Shown one piece after another: positions 22,594-32,193 of a stretch of 64,000 nucleotides of DNA. How positions within the stretch are numbered: the stretch's first letter is position 1; every line of letters begins with the position of its first letter. The notes beneath the pieces were generated by a model, which was given only the letters and a program-made list of their open reading frames with translations, ran no database searches and was not told the origin of the DNA. This DNA is from Salinigranum marinum. Lineage in GTDB: Archaea > Halobacteriota > Halobacteria > Halobacteriales > Haloferacaceae. Location: positions 1,984,001 to 2,048,000 of the forward strand of contig NZ_CP100461.1 of NCBI RefSeq assembly GCF_024228675.1, in the 5' to 3' direction. The position numbers were made by a program, and so were the translations under genes.

Positions 22594-23286
22594 TTACCGC
22601 CGTCGGCGGGCGACGAACGCGGCGACGAGCGTGAGCGCGAGTGCGGTCAGCGCGATCCCGCCAGCCGGGAGGGCGAACGTGGTCGACGTCGTCTCTGCGT
22701 CGGCGGTCGACGCGGTCGATCCCGCGCCGGCGTCCGCGTCTGCGGCGACGGTCGTGCCGTCGTTCGTGGCGGTGGTGCCGGCGGCGGCGACGGTGACGGT
22801 GCCAGCGTCGCTCGCCGGGCTCATCGAGCCCCCGCCGTCGGTGTCGAACTGGACGGGTGTGAGACTGAGCGTCGTCTCGCCGACCCGCTCCCCGCTCAGT
22901 TCGACCGTGGCGAGGACGACCGCAGAGGCCCCGGGCTGGACGTTCTCGCTCAGATCGGCGGCCTCGAGGGTGACCGTCTTGCCGTCGTCGCCGATCGCCG
23001 GCTCGGACGTCAGTCCGAACGCGTCCGGATAGCTCGCGCCCTCGATGGCCGTCCCGTCACCCTCGACGGAGAGGTCGACCGCGTAGCCGGCGAGTCCCTC
23101 GGGTGCCGACGTGAGGACGACGTCGACCGTGGCGCGCTCGCCGGGCTGGACGGTCGTGCTGGAGACGGTGATCGTGGGGCTGTCGGACTGGGCGGCCGCC
23201 GCGCCGGTCAGCGCCGACGCACAAAGTGCGAGGACGACCGCACCGACGGCGGCGAGTCGAACGAAGTCTGTGTCGTTTGGTGTCAT
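22594..23286 (-). CDS. Membrane-anchored surface protein with a cohesin-like domain
   Basis: A 230-residue exported protein. There is an N-terminal signal peptide (hydrophobic AAVGAVVLALCASALTGAAAA), a cohesin-like beta-sandwich at residues about 37-160 (TITVSSTTVQPGERATV, PEGLAGYAVDLSVEG, GASYPDAFGL), and an Ala/Thr linker. One C-terminal transmembrane helix ends in RRRR. No PGF motif precedes the helix, so it is probably held by the helix itself. The cohesin-like domain resembles the one inside the neighbouring PhoX protein (EGASYPDAFGL against QGADYPDAVGL). It lies 83 bases downstream of the PhoX gene in the same direction, so the two are probably one operon. Confidence 0.87.
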   Translation of the reverse strand: MTPNDTDFVRLAAVGAVVLALCASALTGAAAAQSDSPTITVSSTTVQPGERATVDVVLTSAPEGLAGYAVDLSVEGDGTAIEGASYPDAFGLTSEPAIGDDGKTVTLEAADLSENVQPGASAVVLATVELSGERVGETTLSLTPVQFDTDGGGSMSPASDAGTVTVAAAGTTATNDGTTVAADADAGAGSTASTADAETTSTTFALPAGGIALTALALTLVAAFVARRRR

Positions 23287-23369
23287 TGTGTTCGGGTATG
23301 GGGTTCGTGTGTCGTGTATCGAAAGAACGGAGGAGTGGGCGGCGTCTCGCTCGCGTTCGCCCGCTCGGC

Positions 23370-26069
23370 TCAGTTGCCGCGGTTGCTGGCGACGCCGGCG
23401 TCCTCGTAGAGGGCGACGATGTCGGCGTAGTCGAGGCGGTCGTTCTCGTTGAAGTCGAACGCGCGGGCGTTCGACGTGACGCTCTGGCTCTCGAGGTTGT
23501 TGAACAGCAACACGACGTCGTCGTAGTCGACGCGGCCGTTGCCGTTGACGTCCTCGAAGCGGCCGTCGCCGTCGAGGTCCCGCGGCGTGTTGGGGCTGCT
23601 GCCGACGCTGGAGGGACCGGTGAGCGCCAGCCCCGAGCGGTTCTCGACGTCGATCGCCTGGCCGGCGTCGTCGTCGAGTGAGGCCGCGGTGTCGATGTCG
23701 GTCACGCCCGCACCCATGCCGGCGAGAGTGACGGTCCCGACGACGAACTCGGTGCCCTCGGCCTGCATCGCGGCGTTGGTGTCGGCGAAGCGGAACGTTG
23801 CGGTCGAGGCGTCGTCGGAGACGACCGGCTCCTCGGCGAGGCCGACGGCGTCGGGGTAGTCCGCGCCCTGGATCTCGACGACGTTCGTGTCGGCGACGGT
23901 GACGGAGAACTCGCCACCGGCGAGGCCGTCGGGGACGTGCTTCGCCACGATCTGTGCCTCGACGGAGTCGCCCTGACCGACCGCGACCGAACTCACGTCG
24001 ATCTGGACGTTGGGCTGGTAGACGTACAGGCAGTCGTTGGGGTACGACCGCCGGGACTCGTCGAAGCCGTCCTCACAGCAGAGGACGCGGCCGTCGTCCA
24101 TCACGTAGACGTTGTCGATGTTGCGGACGGCGTCGTTGGCGGCCTCGGGGCCGTCGGTGAAGTCCGGACCGACGATGACCGGTTCGAGTTCGGAGACGGT
24201 GTAGTTCGTGTCGAGTTCGCCGCGGTAGATGACGCCGCCGTCGACGCGGTCCATCCGGACGTCGCCCGTCTCGTCGGCGAGGTCGTCGTTGAACTCGGAG
24301 ATGCCGAAGTAGACGTAGTCGCCGGGACCGGCGTCGTCGCGGCTGTCGACGCCCTCGGCCTTGTTGAACTCGATCGAGGCACCGATCTCCTTGGCCGCGG
24401 CGCGGGTCTCGAGGAACGGCACCTTGCGGAGGTCGTCGTCGACGCCGTCGTGACCGTTCTCCTCGTACTGGGCGGCCCACTCGAGGACCTCCTCGTTGGT
24501 GATGTAGTTCTGGTTACCGTTCTCGATGACCTCGAGGTCGGCCTCCTTGAGTGCCGCGCTGAGGTTGCCGACGACGTCGGTGCCGTCGGCGGTGTGGGCT
24601 TCGAGGTAGTCCAGTTGGGTGACGCCGTCGTACTCCGCGATCCACTCTTCGCACTCCGCGTTGGAGGCGTGGCCCAGCGGGATCCACTCGATCTCGAGGT
24701 TGATCTCGGCCGGGGAGGCGCGGGTTCCGGACTCGGCGACGTTGGCCTCGTCGTTGGTGATCTTCGGCGCGTACAGCGTCCCCTCGACGTCCATCGGGTC
24801 GGCGTAGGAGGGGATCTCCTCGTCGGCGACGAACTTGTAGATGCCCTTGGAGTCGCCGTCGGAGCAGCCGTACACCGTCTTGAGGTCGTTCTGGAAGTCC
24901 GGTGCCTCCCAAGAGGCGCGGCCCATCACGTAATATTTGATGGGCGTGGGTTCGTCGGCCGCGGGGTCGCGGATGTCCACATGGTAGCCGTACCGGTAGG
25001 GGTTCGGGTAGACGTCGTCGATCGGGCTGATGGTGTTGTCGTCGCCCGACTGATCGACCTGGCTCGCGCCGAGGTAGTACGCGAGGAACTCGACACCGGA
25101 CAGCGCCCAGTAGCCCTGGACGTACCAGCTGCTGCCGAGGTCGCCATCGGCGGCGTAGTCGTTGACTGCACCCTGCACTTCGGTCGGGTTCGGACGGTTC
25201 CAGAACTGACACGCCCCGACGAGCCCCTCGCCGCCGTTCTCGACGATGTCACCGACGGTGTTCGTCAGGCTCACGCGCGGGTGCGCGTAGTTCTCCTCGG
25301 AGCTGACCATCGTGTTCCACGGAGAGAGGTCACCGTAGCAGTTGATGCGCGTCCCACCGACGGCGCGGAACGCGTCGGTGTTGACGACGTTCATCGCTTC
25401 GTCGAGGTCGGACTCCCACTCGCCGTCTTCGGTCTGGCTGATCGGGATCCGGCTGACGTTCCCCGGGCTGTTCTCCCAGTTCGTGAAGAGGTATCCCTCG
25501 GTTTCCTCCTCGTTGGTGGCGACGAACTCGTTGCAGTCGGGGTTGGTCGCGGCCGCACCGTACTGGGTGCCCGCGAAGTTGTCCATCGTGATGTCGGTGC
25601 CGTCGGGCGTCTGGGTCACGCCGAGGCGCTCCGTGCCACCGTTGATCGAGTCGCGTCCCTTCCCGAGGTACGTGTACGTCCCCGCGCTGGAACGGATCTG
25701 CCGACGCTGTTCTTCGGTCTTCGGGATCGACAGCTCCGAGAAGTCGTCGTTGCTCCCGTTCAGCTCGAACTGGAAGCCGCTGAAATAGCCCACGCCGGGG
25801 CTGCTGAACTCCCCCTGGTTGTTCTCCTCCGGGTGCTGGTTGCTGTACAGGAGCGAACCGTCCGCGAAGACGAACGGACCGGTGACCTCCGCACCGAACG
25901 CGGTGTTCGAAAACCGCTTCAGGCTCCCCTTCACGCTCGGCGCGCCGGGCGTGTCGTCCTCCTCGATCTCGCTCGCACTGGCGCTTGCTACCCCGCTGCC
26001 CGCCACGCTGGCTCCGAGGGCGGCTGCCACCGATGTGGCCATCAGACTCCGTCGATTTAGATCGACCAT
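23370..26069 (-). CDS. PhoX-type alkaline phosphatase (DUF839) fused to cohesin-like and dockerin-like domains
   Basis: An 899-residue Tat-exported protein. The signal has NRRSLMATS with a hydrophobic stretch to about residue 30. The PhoX/DUF839 domain covers about 45-680. RINCYGDLSPWNT with Cys244 and SSEEN (257-260) matches the metal-binding region of PhoX, a Fe/Ca-dependent phosphomonoesterase. The region 687-815 is a cohesin-like sandwich. Residues about 830-890 hold two dockerin-type calcium loops: DVNGNGRVDYDDVVLL and DFNENDRLDYADIVAL. A TATA box (about 26103-26112) and a 550-base gap lie upstream; phosphate control is plausible but no motif is proven. The product probably releases phosphate outside the cell and docks to a surface partner. 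Confidence 0.92.
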   Translation of the reverse strand: MVDLNRRSLMATSVAAALGASVAGSGVASASASEIEEDDTPGAPSVKGSLKRFSNTAFGAEVTGPFVFADGSLLYSNQHPEENNQGEFSSPGVGYFSGFQFELNGSNDDFSELSIPKTEEQRRQIRSSAGTYTYLGKGRDSINGGTERLGVTQTPDGTDITMDNFAGTQYGAAATNPDCNEFVATNEEETEGYLFTNWENSPGNVSRIPISQTEDGEWESDLDEAMNVVNTDAFRAVGGTRINCYGDLSPWNTMVSSEENYAHPRVSLTNTVGDIVENGGEGLVGACQFWNRPNPTEVQGAVNDYAADGDLGSSWYVQGYWALSGVEFLAYYLGASQVDQSGDDNTISPIDDVYPNPYRYGYHVDIRDPAADEPTPIKYYVMGRASWEAPDFQNDLKTVYGCSDGDSKGIYKFVADEEIPSYADPMDVEGTLYAPKITNDEANVAESGTRASPAEINLEIEWIPLGHASNAECEEWIAEYDGVTQLDYLEAHTADGTDVVGNLSAALKEADLEVIENGNQNYITNEEVLEWAAQYEENGHDGVDDDLRKVPFLETRAAAKEIGASIEFNKAEGVDSRDDAGPGDYVYFGISEFNDDLADETGDVRMDRVDGGVIYRGELDTNYTVSELEPVIVGPDFTDGPEAANDAVRNIDNVYVMDDGRVLCCEDGFDESRRSYPNDCLYVYQPNVQIDVSSVAVGQGDSVEAQIVAKHVPDGLAGGEFSVTVADTNVVEIQGADYPDAVGLAEEPVVSDDASTATFRFADTNAAMQAEGTEFVVGTVTLAGMGAGVTDIDTAASLDDDAGQAIDVENRSGLALTGPSSVGSSPNTPRDLDGDGRFEDVNGNGRVDYDDVVLLFNNLESQSVTSNARAFDFNENDRLDYADIVALYEDAGVASNRGN

Positions 26070-26621
26070 GCAGGTGGAGAGGACGAGCCTTCGTTAAAGG
26101 CGTTTTATAATATCTCTCTAAATTACAATTGTTCCGCCGAGAAACCCCGAAGCCGTACCCAGTGCTGTGTGAACTATCAAGTGATATGTATTATCAAATC
26201 GAGTATCTCTAAGCGAAACACTGCCTGGGTCGAAAGTCACGAAAACCGTGGCGTGCCGCGCTCCCTATCGCTGTCTCGCGAGCGCTATCAGGTGACGAAA
26301 TCGGACTCACGCTCGCCACGGGAGGGAGTTACAGCCGGCTCGTGGCCCGGACCGAAGCCAGCTCTCAATCGTTTCAGAAGTACGAAACGATGGGGGAGCG
26401 ATCCCATCAGTCGGAACCGAGCGTGCGCGCGACGGGAGATGGAAACCCCGTCGCGATTCGTTTCAAAGATCGAGTGTGTTCGAAAACCGCACGGGAAACG
26501 TTCAGTAGTCGGACCACCGCGCACGTGGGTCCCGTCCGCCCACTGTCTCGGTCCGCGGAGGTCGACGCGTCCGTTCGGCCGTGGGTCCCGGTCGATGCCC
26601 GTCGCGGTCGTCCGAACGAAG
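26070..26621. other. Long intergenic region upstream of the PhoX-type gene
   Basis: About 550 bases with lower GC near 26100-26220. The TATA box for the PhoX gene is TTTTATAATA (26103-26112). Frames through the rest are short, rich in Arg/Ser/Thr and lack haloarchaeal codon bias, so I see no gene. It may hold regulatory sites or decayed sequence. Confidence 0.5.
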
Positions 26622-27047
26622 CTACTCCATGCCCCGCGCTTCGGCACCGTCCCGGATCTCTTCGGCGCGTCCCCGGACCCACGAGACGTACCGTTCGATC
26701 CGTTCCGGCTTCTTGCCGAAAAACGACGCGACCCAGAGGCGGTCGTGGTGCGGCTGTGTCAGGAGGTACGCGGCCATCACGGCCCGGCCCGCCTGGATGA
26801 TGACCGGTGGGACGCCGCGCTCGCCGGTGCCCGCCTCCTCGAACCCGTTGGCACAGAAGTAGACGTCGGCGTACAGCTCAGCCATCTCGGGGTCCTCGAA
26901 CTCCAGCCCCTGGTGTTTCGGAGCCTCGAACCGGTAGCGGGGCTCGTCGGCGGCGGGGGAGTGCTCGACGATTCGGACGCCCAAGACGTACTGTTCGTGG
27001 ATCGATTCGCGCTCCTCGCCCGCGGGTCGGTGGTCTGGTTTCGACAT
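26622..27047 (-). CDS. Haloarchaeal hypothetical protein, 141 aa
   Basis: I do not recognise the family. It is a soluble acidic protein starting MSKPDHRPAGEERESIHE. Notable stretches are EDPEMAELYADVYFCANGFEEA, a helix ending in a cysteine, and VIIQAGRAVMAAYLLTQPHHDRLW. No signal peptide or obvious catalytic motif is seen. Coding bias is strong. A TATA box on the minus strand around 27138-27148 would leave a leader of about 65 bases. Confidence 0.8.
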   Translation of the reverse strand: MSKPDHRPAGEERESIHEQYVLGVRIVEHSPAADEPRYRFEAPKHQGLEFEDPEMAELYADVYFCANGFEEAGTGERGVPPVIIQAGRAVMAAYLLTQPHHDRLWVASFFGKKPERIERYVSWVRGRAEEIRDGAEARGME

Positions 27048-30608: not shown

Positions 30609-31964
30609 TCAGCCGACGATGAACTGGCCGGCGATCTCGCGCACCTCCGCCATCGACATCGCCTCGTCGACGCCAGCGGGGAACGGCGACTCGACGTTGA
30701 GCTCGTTGAGGAAGCCGGCGTGGCGGGCCTCGACGCTGTGGATGCCGATCGCCGCGGCGAAGACGTCGTCGTTCGTCACGGTGGGTGCCGCGCCGGCGTA
30801 GGCGGCGACGCCGGTATTTTCGAGCGCCTGGGCCACGGCCAAAAACTCCGAGGGGGTCTCGTAGCCGAAGTCGTACTCGGCCTCCTCGACGGGCGTCCCA
30901 CCCAGCCGTTCGACGACGTCGGTCAGCGCCGTCACGTGGGCGGCCTCGTGTTCTCCGGCGGTCGCGAGGGACGCCGGCACCTCCATCCGGACCGCCTCGT
31001 CGAACGGCGACAGGACGTCCGCCGTCATCAGTTCCTCGTCGGAGAACTCCGCGAGGCCGTCGCGGTAGAAGGCGTTCTCGAGGTGCTCCAGCGTGAGCGC
31101 GTAGTTGAGCACGTCGACGTCGCTCGTGTCGTTCTCCGCCTTCCGCGCGACGGGCATCGACTCGGTCTCGGGCGTCCCGGCCATCCCACTCGTGTCCGAG
31201 GTGACGAACTGGCCGGCGATCTCGAGCACCTCGGCCATCGACATCGACTCGTCGACGGCGTTGGGGTAGGGACTGTCGCCGTTGACGAGGTTCAGGAAGC
31301 CGGCGTGGCGGGCCTCGACGCTGTGGATGCCGGCGGCGGCCGCGAGCACGTCGTTGCTGTGGACCGACGGGGCGGCACCGGCGTAGGCGGCGACGCCGGT
31401 GTTTTCGAGCGCCTGGGCCACGGCCAAAAACTCCGAGGGGGTCTCGTAGCCGAAGTCGTACTCGGCTTCCTCGGCCGGGGTCCCGCCCAGCCGTTCGACG
31501 GTCGCCGAGATCGCTTCGACGTGGGCCGCCTCGTGCTCGCCGACGGTGGCGAGGGACGCCGGCACCTCCATCCGGACCTGTTCGCCGAAGCCCGAGAGCA
31601 CGCTCGCGTTCATCAGTTCCTCGTCGGAGAACTCCGCGAGGCCGTCGCGGTAGAAGGCGTTCTCGAGGTGCTCCAGCGTGAGCGCGTAGTTGAGCACGGG
31701 AACGTCGGGGGTGACGGACTCCATCTCCTCCGTCTCGGTCGGCTCCTCGGTCGGGGTCGCCGTCTCCGCCGGGGTCGCGGTTGGCGTGTCGGTCGCCGTC
31801 GCGGTGTCGGTTCCACCGCTGCCGGAGCCGTCCCCGCCCATGCAGCCGGCGAGCGCGATAGTGCTCAGCGCGGCCGTCGAGCCGAGGAAGGCGCGGCGCG
31901 AGGCGCGGTCGGGTGCGGTCGTGGTCGGGTCGTCGCGGTCGGACGCGGTCTCGTTCGAGGTCAT
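30609..31964 (-). CDS. Tat lipoprotein with two tandem ferritin-like domains
   Basis: A 451-residue exported protein starting at ATG 31964. It has a twin-arginine signal (SRRAFLGS) with lipobox IALAGC (Cys41) and a Thr/Glu-rich linker. Two ferritin-like (PF13668-type) domains lie at residues 87-256 and 282-451. They are about 82% identical by eye and collinear without gaps. Each contains LNYALTLEHLENAFY, GEHEAAHV and HSVEARHAG, which supply the glutamate and histidine ligands of a di-iron-type helical bundle. The linker between them is 25 residues. It is probably a surface iron-binding or stress protein. The high identity suggests recent duplication or ongoing gene conversion. Confidence 0.92.
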   Translation of the reverse strand: MTSNETASDRDDPTTTAPDRASRRAFLGSTAALSTIALAGCMGGDGSGSGGTDTATATDTPTATPAETATPTEEPTETEEMESVTPDVPVLNYALTLEHLENAFYRDGLAEFSDEELMNASVLSGFGEQVRMEVPASLATVGEHEAAHVEAISATVERLGGTPAEEAEYDFGYETPSEFLAVAQALENTGVAAYAGAAPSVHSNDVLAAAAGIHSVEARHAGFLNLVNGDSPYPNAVDESMSMAEVLEIAGQFVTSDTSGMAGTPETESMPVARKAENDTSDVDVLNYALTLEHLENAFYRDGLAEFSDEELMTADVLSPFDEAVRMEVPASLATAGEHEAAHVTALTDVVERLGGTPVEEAEYDFGYETPSEFLAVAQALENTGVAAYAGAAPTVTNDDVFAAAIGIHSVEARHAGFLNELNVESPFPAGVDEAMSMAEVREIAGQFIVG

Positions 31965-32006
31965 TGGCGTCGACCGTGACTGGGGACAAAACACGGATGA
32001 AGATAC

Positions 32007-32069
32007 TCCGAACTGCCACGCGATTCTTCCCGGAGTCGGACGCGATTGTGTCCGAACTGCCACGCGATT
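32007..32069. repeat. 19-bp direct repeats upstream of the ferritin-like lipoprotein gene
   Basis: TCCGAACTGCCACGCGATT occurs at 32007-32025 and 32051-32069 (44 bases apart), with a partial third copy CCGAACTGCGCG at about 32087-32098. The repeats lie 43-105 bases upstream of ATG 31964, in the right place for an operator or activator site. Confidence 0.6.
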
Positions 32070-32193
32070 GTGACCCAATTCCGACCCCGAACTGCGCGGT
32101 CGACGCCGGGGCGCGCGGTCCCACGCGGTCGTACACTTTCACTTTCACCGCGCTAGGCTGACCTACAAGCCGCTCTGCGCCCGTTCTCTAGCT

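Follow-up and report, generated by a model that had tools for sequence, protein, structure and literature searches.

A candidate surface docking system for phosphatases in the haloarchaeon Salinigranum marinum, pairing an enzyme-borne dockerin with a membrane cohesin

To our knowledge, the docking of dockerins onto cohesins is known almost solely from polysaccharide degradation. The archaeon Archaeoglobus fulgidus reportedly possesses non-cellulosomal cohesin–dockerin proteins (work ascribed to Bayer in 1999, Haimovitz in 2008 and Voronov-Goldman in 2011), and we take these to be the products of neighbouring genes, one with a cohesin alone and the other with a cohesin plus a dockerin. Here we describe a pair of genes at 22594–26069, both on the minus strand, of a 64,000-nucleotide stretch of Salinigranum marinum DNA (NZ_CP100461.1; 'the window' hereafter means this whole stretch). 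The first encodes a PhoX-family phosphatase that ends in a tail termed CohDoc (that is, a C-terminal cohesin plus dockerin), and the second encodes CohM, a predicted secreted, membrane-anchored cohesin. We suggest, with a probability of roughly three in four, that the two form a surface-anchored phosphatase docking system in which the dockerin of PhoX would bind the cohesin of membrane-bound CohM.

Among archaea, cohesins and dockerins have been described in Archaeoglobus and in anaerobic methanotrophic (ANME) archaea, and binding between the two has been reported for Archaeoglobus (PMC9012536, PMC9705933); the dockerins of a haloarchaeal mannanase and glycosaminoglycan lyase have been interpreted as substrate-binding (PMC10963439, PMC13260240). 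The S. marinum pair resembles the A. fulgidus system in its archaeal type I-like cohesin fold (modelled CohM against the A. fulgidus cohesin 2xdh: Z 15.6, root-mean-square deviation 2.6 over 134 residues), but differs in that the dockerin bearer is an identified enzyme, mostly a phosphatase, that the lone cohesin is membrane-anchored, and that the pair is widespread with repeated co-loss. Like the bacterial anchoring scaffoldins (SdbA, OlpA and ScaE, for example), CohM would be an envelope-fixed, secreted cohesin able to receive a dockerin-bearing enzyme; however, those scaffoldins use SLH or sortase signals, whereas CohM proteins have a membrane helix or a PGF-CTERM-like tail, a single cohesin, no cellulose binding and phosphatases as their probable cargo. 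The surface proteins with cohesins and dockerins in ANME archaea, of inferred function as here, are mainly ABC-transporter binding proteins and multi-cohesin proteins (PMC9012536), in contrast to the phosphatases and one anchor of the present case. Bacterial PhoX (3zwu and 4amf) belongs to the same phosphatase family as the window enzyme, yet its crystallized chains (588–592 residues) lack the CohDoc tail, as do 70 of the 150 haloarchaeal PhoX listed below. A literature search that covered few subscription papers returned no paper linking cohesins with haloarchaea or phosphatases in this way, and we treat priority as uncertain.

The locus comprises the following features.
23370–26069, minus strand: phoX-CohDoc gene, 899 amino acids (open reading frame and sequence)
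25974–26069, minus strand: twin-arginine (Tat) signal region of PhoX, NRRSLMATSVAAALG... (sequence)
24048–25391, minus strand: Pfam-matched part of the PhoX catalytic domain, residues 227–674 (PF05787)
23607–24011, minus strand: predicted enzyme-borne cohesin, residues ~687–821 (AlphaFold2 and VIA-align, Z 15.9)
23400–23561, minus strand: dockerin with calcium-loop repeats DVNGNGRVDYDD and DFNENDRLDYAD, residues 837–890 (PF00404 as a fragment; alignments)
23523–23525, minus strand: Tyr849, position 10 of dockerin repeat 1 (41/41 with CohM, 0/6 without)
22594–23286, minus strand: cohM gene, 230 amino acids (open reading frame and sequence)
23191–23286, minus strand: signal peptide region of CohM (sequence)
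22777–23181, minus strand: predicted cohesin domain of CohM, residues 36–170 (AlphaFold2, predicted local distance difference test (pLDDT) ~93–98; Z 15.9)
22663–22776, minus strand: Ala/Thr/Asp-rich linker of CohM (sequence; low pLDDT)
22597–22662, minus strand: C-terminal membrane helix and RRRR of CohM (sequence; helix 211–229 in the model)
26103–26110, minus strand: TATA-box-like TTATAAAA, about 34 nucleotides before the phoX start (sequence)

An earlier reading of these letters without database searches (the sequence-only reading) had proposed the two open reading frames at 23370–26069 and 22594–23286 and, within the 899-residue protein, the order Tat signal, PhoX, cohesin and dockerin; both proposals are borne out, the latter by Pfam, predicted structure and the sequence itself, in which the twin-arginine motif is visible. 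The PF05787 match reaches 76.3 bits (cut-off 24), which places the enzyme among PhoX proteins, and a profile of its orthologues, whose similarity spans residues 1–687, matches the Pseudomonas PhoX crystal structures (3zwu and 4amf, E 3.6e-11) in an alignment that retains the NC...PW.T..S.EE motif. As judged from these matches, the window enzyme belongs to the PhoX alkaline phosphatase family and is a putative phosphatase with metal cofactors. The dockerin proposed for its C terminus matches PF00404 at residues 839–887 with 21.9 bits in the full protein, below the cut-off of 22.9, and passes with 25.2 bits when scanned as a fragment; the two calcium-loop repeats together with this fragment match mark it as a type I dockerin, and PF00404 matches in 23 of 26 relatives (E ≤ 0.01).

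The cohesins are elusive at the sequence level: PF00963 scores 9.3 and 9.9 bits in the two window proteins, far under its cut-off of 24.1, searches of the Protein Data Bank with PhoX-CohDoc or CohM as single sequences gave no match, and a CohM profile search found no cohesin by sequence. Because such searches leave the domains unproven, structure prediction was needed, and AlphaFold2 models built from alignments of 26 relatives were compared with known structures by VIA-align. Residues 36–170 of CohM form a block of pLDDT ~93–98 that matches type I cohesin crystal structures (Z 15.9), the PhoX-borne domain matches type I cohesins with the same score (Z 15.9), and the top structural matches of both are nearly all cohesins; as modelled, both domains have the type I cohesin fold. 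The shortfall of PF00963, which matches 4 of 26 relatives at E ≤ 0.01 (best 5.3e-6), is a detection limit rather than a property of the fold, and the cohesins named by the sequence-only reading therefore stand on predicted structure, although not on a profile match.

The second gene had been read as encoding a signal peptide, a cohesin and a C-terminal membrane helix, with which both the sequence and the AlphaFold2 model agree: a Sec-type signal and, at the C terminus, a hydrophobic helix and then RRRR can be seen in the former, and helices 9–23 and 211–229 flank the cohesin in the latter. One chain thus unites the signal peptide, cohesin and envelope anchor of an anchoring scaffoldin. Many CohM orthologues have PGF-CTERM-like tails (TIGR04126 matches are weak, with one relative, L139, above the cut-off). 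We reject the possibility that CohM is a wrongly read stretch of PhoX, given that it possesses a start, a signal and a stop of its own and that its nonsynonymous divergence between congeners (dN 0.24–0.30, loose linker included) lies below the synonymous one (dS 0.48–0.56). In a tree of cohesins, those of CohM and those borne by PhoX fall on separate sides (SH-aLRT 93), a split that we treat as support and not proof in view of the short domain and several long rows. The cohM gene lies directly downstream of phoX-CohDoc, on the same strand and after a gap of 83 nucleotides, and codon use is haloarchaeal in both (GC content at third codon positions 0.92 in phoX-CohDoc and 0.89 in cohM). As TTATAAAA precedes phoX and inspection of the 83-nucleotide gap revealed no AT-rich promoter element, a single transcript is likely.

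The distribution of the two genes supports a functional pair. When named genomes were searched with the CohM alignment, 25 loci came to light in numerous genera within Halobacteria (Salinigranum, Halorubrum, Haloplanus, Haloarcula, Natrinema, Natrialba, Halobiforma, Halopiger and others). Each of them immediately follows, in the same orientation, a gene for a CohDoc enzyme (PhoX in 24 cases, GDPD in one), so that the gene pair is kept across many haloarchaeal genera. The 150 PhoX genes listed from 392 genomes of the order comprise 80 that extend into cohesin/dockerin and 70 that end before. When CohM was counted at ≤1.5 kb downstream of PhoX, it followed 68 of the 80 tailed genes and none of the 70 tail-less ones, figures that hold among the CohM matches listed, so that weak CohM genes may have escaped notice in tail-less genomes; the Fisher value of 1.3e-30 ignores relatedness and is not taken as a probability. 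The 12 tailed exceptions include five first genes of a tandem PhoX–PhoX–CohM, one gene at a contig end and one without a dockerin, and five (G297, G271, G091, G074 and G316) are truly without a neighbouring CohM; G021, from an earlier survey, adds a sixth case of PhoX-CohDoc without CohM. Shared ancestry alone is argued against by a tree built on the PhoX catalytic domain only (86 sequences), in which the CohDoc tail shows at least 11 state changes and CohM changes with the tail in nearly all pairings of seven independent, well-supported contrasts (median two-sided p 0.016).

Two further explanations can be weighed against this distribution. The tail might be self-contained, with the dockerin packing on its own cohesin and only stabilizing the enzyme, and CohM being a paralogue with another task; the adjacency of cohesin and dockerin in one chain and the persistence of CohDoc in six genomes without CohM would fit, but this leaves unexplained the 68/80 versus 0/70 (among the CohM matches listed), the repeated co-loss and the absence of Tyr849 in just those cases that lack CohM, and we consider it unlikely. 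We think it very improbable that tail and cohM are a mobile cassette whose parts travel together without working together: although the tail has a scattered distribution over the PhoX tree and adjoins CohM, so that one transfer could carry both, CohM-like genes also stand downstream of GDPD, nuclease, 5'-nucleotidase and PKD CohDoc proteins, and dockerins that lack a CohM depart from the others at one recognition site.

Tandem PhoX genes (G270, G214, G388, G343 and G258; L098 and L106) occur either as two tailed genes before one CohM or as a tailed gene near a tail-less one. In G003 (L068:7400–8330, minus strand), cohM is frameshifted beside an intact PhoX-CohDoc, through sequencing error or decay.

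One residue of the dockerin tracks the presence of CohM. An unbiased scan of 875 alignment columns, comparing 41 non-redundant PhoX-CohDoc proteins with CohM and 6 without, returned Tyr849 as the best discriminator: Tyr is present in 41/41 of the former and 0/6 of the latter, in which R, H or D replaces it. The Tyr is also kept in 52/52 further CohM-linked PhoX dockerins, which lie outside the discovery set, though some come from strains already sampled. The specificity of bacterial (cellulosomal) dockerins is known to reside at positions 10 and 11, and we take Tyr849 to occupy a classical cohesin-recognition position. At the equivalent position, repeat 2 keeps Tyr or Phe even without CohM.

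That the dockerin binds a substrate or other ligand instead of a cohesin, as proposed for haloarchaeal glycosidases, is the published reading for the mannanase and the glycosaminoglycan lyase (PMC10963439, PMC13260240), but neither paper mentions cohesins, the dockerin described here is genetically linked to a membrane cohesin, and cohesin–dockerin binding has been reported in Archaeoglobus (PMC9012536, PMC9705933); for PhoX we regard ligand binding as highly unlikely. The pairing of dockerin and CohM, offered as a conjecture by the sequence-only reading, is now well supported. Its idea that the phosphatase is tethered to the haloarchaeal surface gains from the predicted cohesin folds, the dockerin profile and the conserved gene pair, and also survives the additional tests of co-loss on the PhoX tree and of Tyr849, which is lost where the anchor is missing.

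On this basis, the proposed docking system can be envisioned as follows. PhoX would be exported folded through the Tat route, whereas CohM, probably co-transcribed with it, would cross the membrane on its own and stay attached to it through its C-terminal helix; the C-terminal dockerin of PhoX would then bind the cohesin of CohM with calcium, and the phosphatase would therefore be kept at the cell surface and not lost to the brine. Besides PhoX, the genome of the window encodes two further CohDoc proteins, which makes three in all, and it has one CohM; these two, PhoD and a choice-of-anchor I protein, probably share this anchor. No tandem cohesins or multi-cohesin scaffoldin, of the kind that would define a cellulosome, were found in that genome. 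Elsewhere, the nearest CohDoc modules occur in PhoD, 5'-nucleotidase, GDPD, staphylococcal-nuclease-type and choice-of-anchor I proteins; a membrane cohesin lies directly downstream of the nuclease and GDPD CohDoc proteins too, and likewise of a 5'-nucleotidase and of PKD proteins, whose modules are more distant. Given the enzyme types that carry CohDoc, the theme of the cargo is mostly phosphoester hydrolysis, with exceptions.

The cohesin borne by the enzyme may have as its partner another enzyme's dockerin, its own dockerin or something else. In the first case, which takes up the polymerization that the sequence-only reading had also suggested, chains could grow by the docking of one enzyme's dockerin on another's cohesin, so that PhoX, PhoD and others polymerize, an extension compatible with the docking system in which CohM would be only the first, membrane-bound link. 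Both partners are present in every CohDoc enzyme, tandem PhoX-CohDoc genes occur, and where CohM is missing the Tyr/Phe of repeat 2 and the enzyme cohesin stay, as if a second contact were needed; a contact within one chain, however, would leave an identical trace, and we hold chain growth to be possible but doubtful. More speculatively, several CohDoc phosphate-releasing enzymes might join head to tail in a cellulosome-like 'phosphatasome', the chains of which would start from one membrane cohesin; repeat 1 would then recognize specifically the anchor, and repeat 2 the enzyme cohesins.

Several observations weigh against anchoring of PhoX on CohM. The dockerin is the low-confidence portion of the predicted model (pLDDT 58–71, with a helix after each loop), and the structure-search matches are dominated by the cohesin. 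The window CohM has no TIGR04126 match and no recognizable PGF motif. PhoX-CohDoc persists without CohM in one clade and in G316, so that CohDoc must have another value there. As five of the six CohM-less cases form that one clade, the residue pattern, noticed post hoc, has about two independent losses behind it. Finally, the PhoD-CohDoc of draft genome G222 keeps the Tyr, and no CohM was found there. We nevertheless favour the docking system and infer physical binding, calcium dependence and a surface location for PhoX and CohM.

If so, the plug and socket known from polysaccharide degradation would seem to organize phosphate scavenging at an archaeal surface. The locus provides haloarchaeal dockerins with a definite candidate partner, together with a residue predicted to serve in recognition and loss variants from nature; the old question of what archaeal cohesins and dockerins do outside cellulosomes can thereby be put to direct test. 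For protein engineering, the locus is a source of docking pairs that tolerate salt.

Other genes and genomes yielded observations of their own. At 26622–27047 (minus strand), the window encodes a conserved 141-residue protein with no Pfam match and no evident signal peptide, which adjoins PhoX in many haloarchaea, with or without a CohDoc tail on PhoX; at 30609–32078 (minus strand), two tandem ferritin-like domains (PF13668) follow a signal-like N terminus. Neighbouring same-strand genes in the haloarchaeon G280 (L142:2102–5224, L159:108–4570 and L142:5401–6126, all minus strand) form a cellulosome-like cluster, in which a Tat-exported scaffoldin-like protein of 1040 residues (an extra N-terminal domain, five tandem cohesins and a dockerin) is accompanied by two dockerin-bearing GH5 cellulases and a membrane-anchored cohesin. 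G191 encodes a 569-residue protein with three cohesins and a dockerin (L140:10140–11849, minus strand), the neighbours of which are dockerin-tailed sugar-dehydrogenase-like, malectin-like and 3-keto-disaccharide-hydrolase-like proteins; lone anchored cohesins lie near it, one with a PGF-CTERM tail above the cut-off. An open frame at an end of contig C23 of G197 encodes about five cohesins in tandem, and in G038 (2.7 Mb in one contig; for example, L094 and L095) 56 dockerin matches reach E ≤ 0.001 and several proteins have more than one cohesin.

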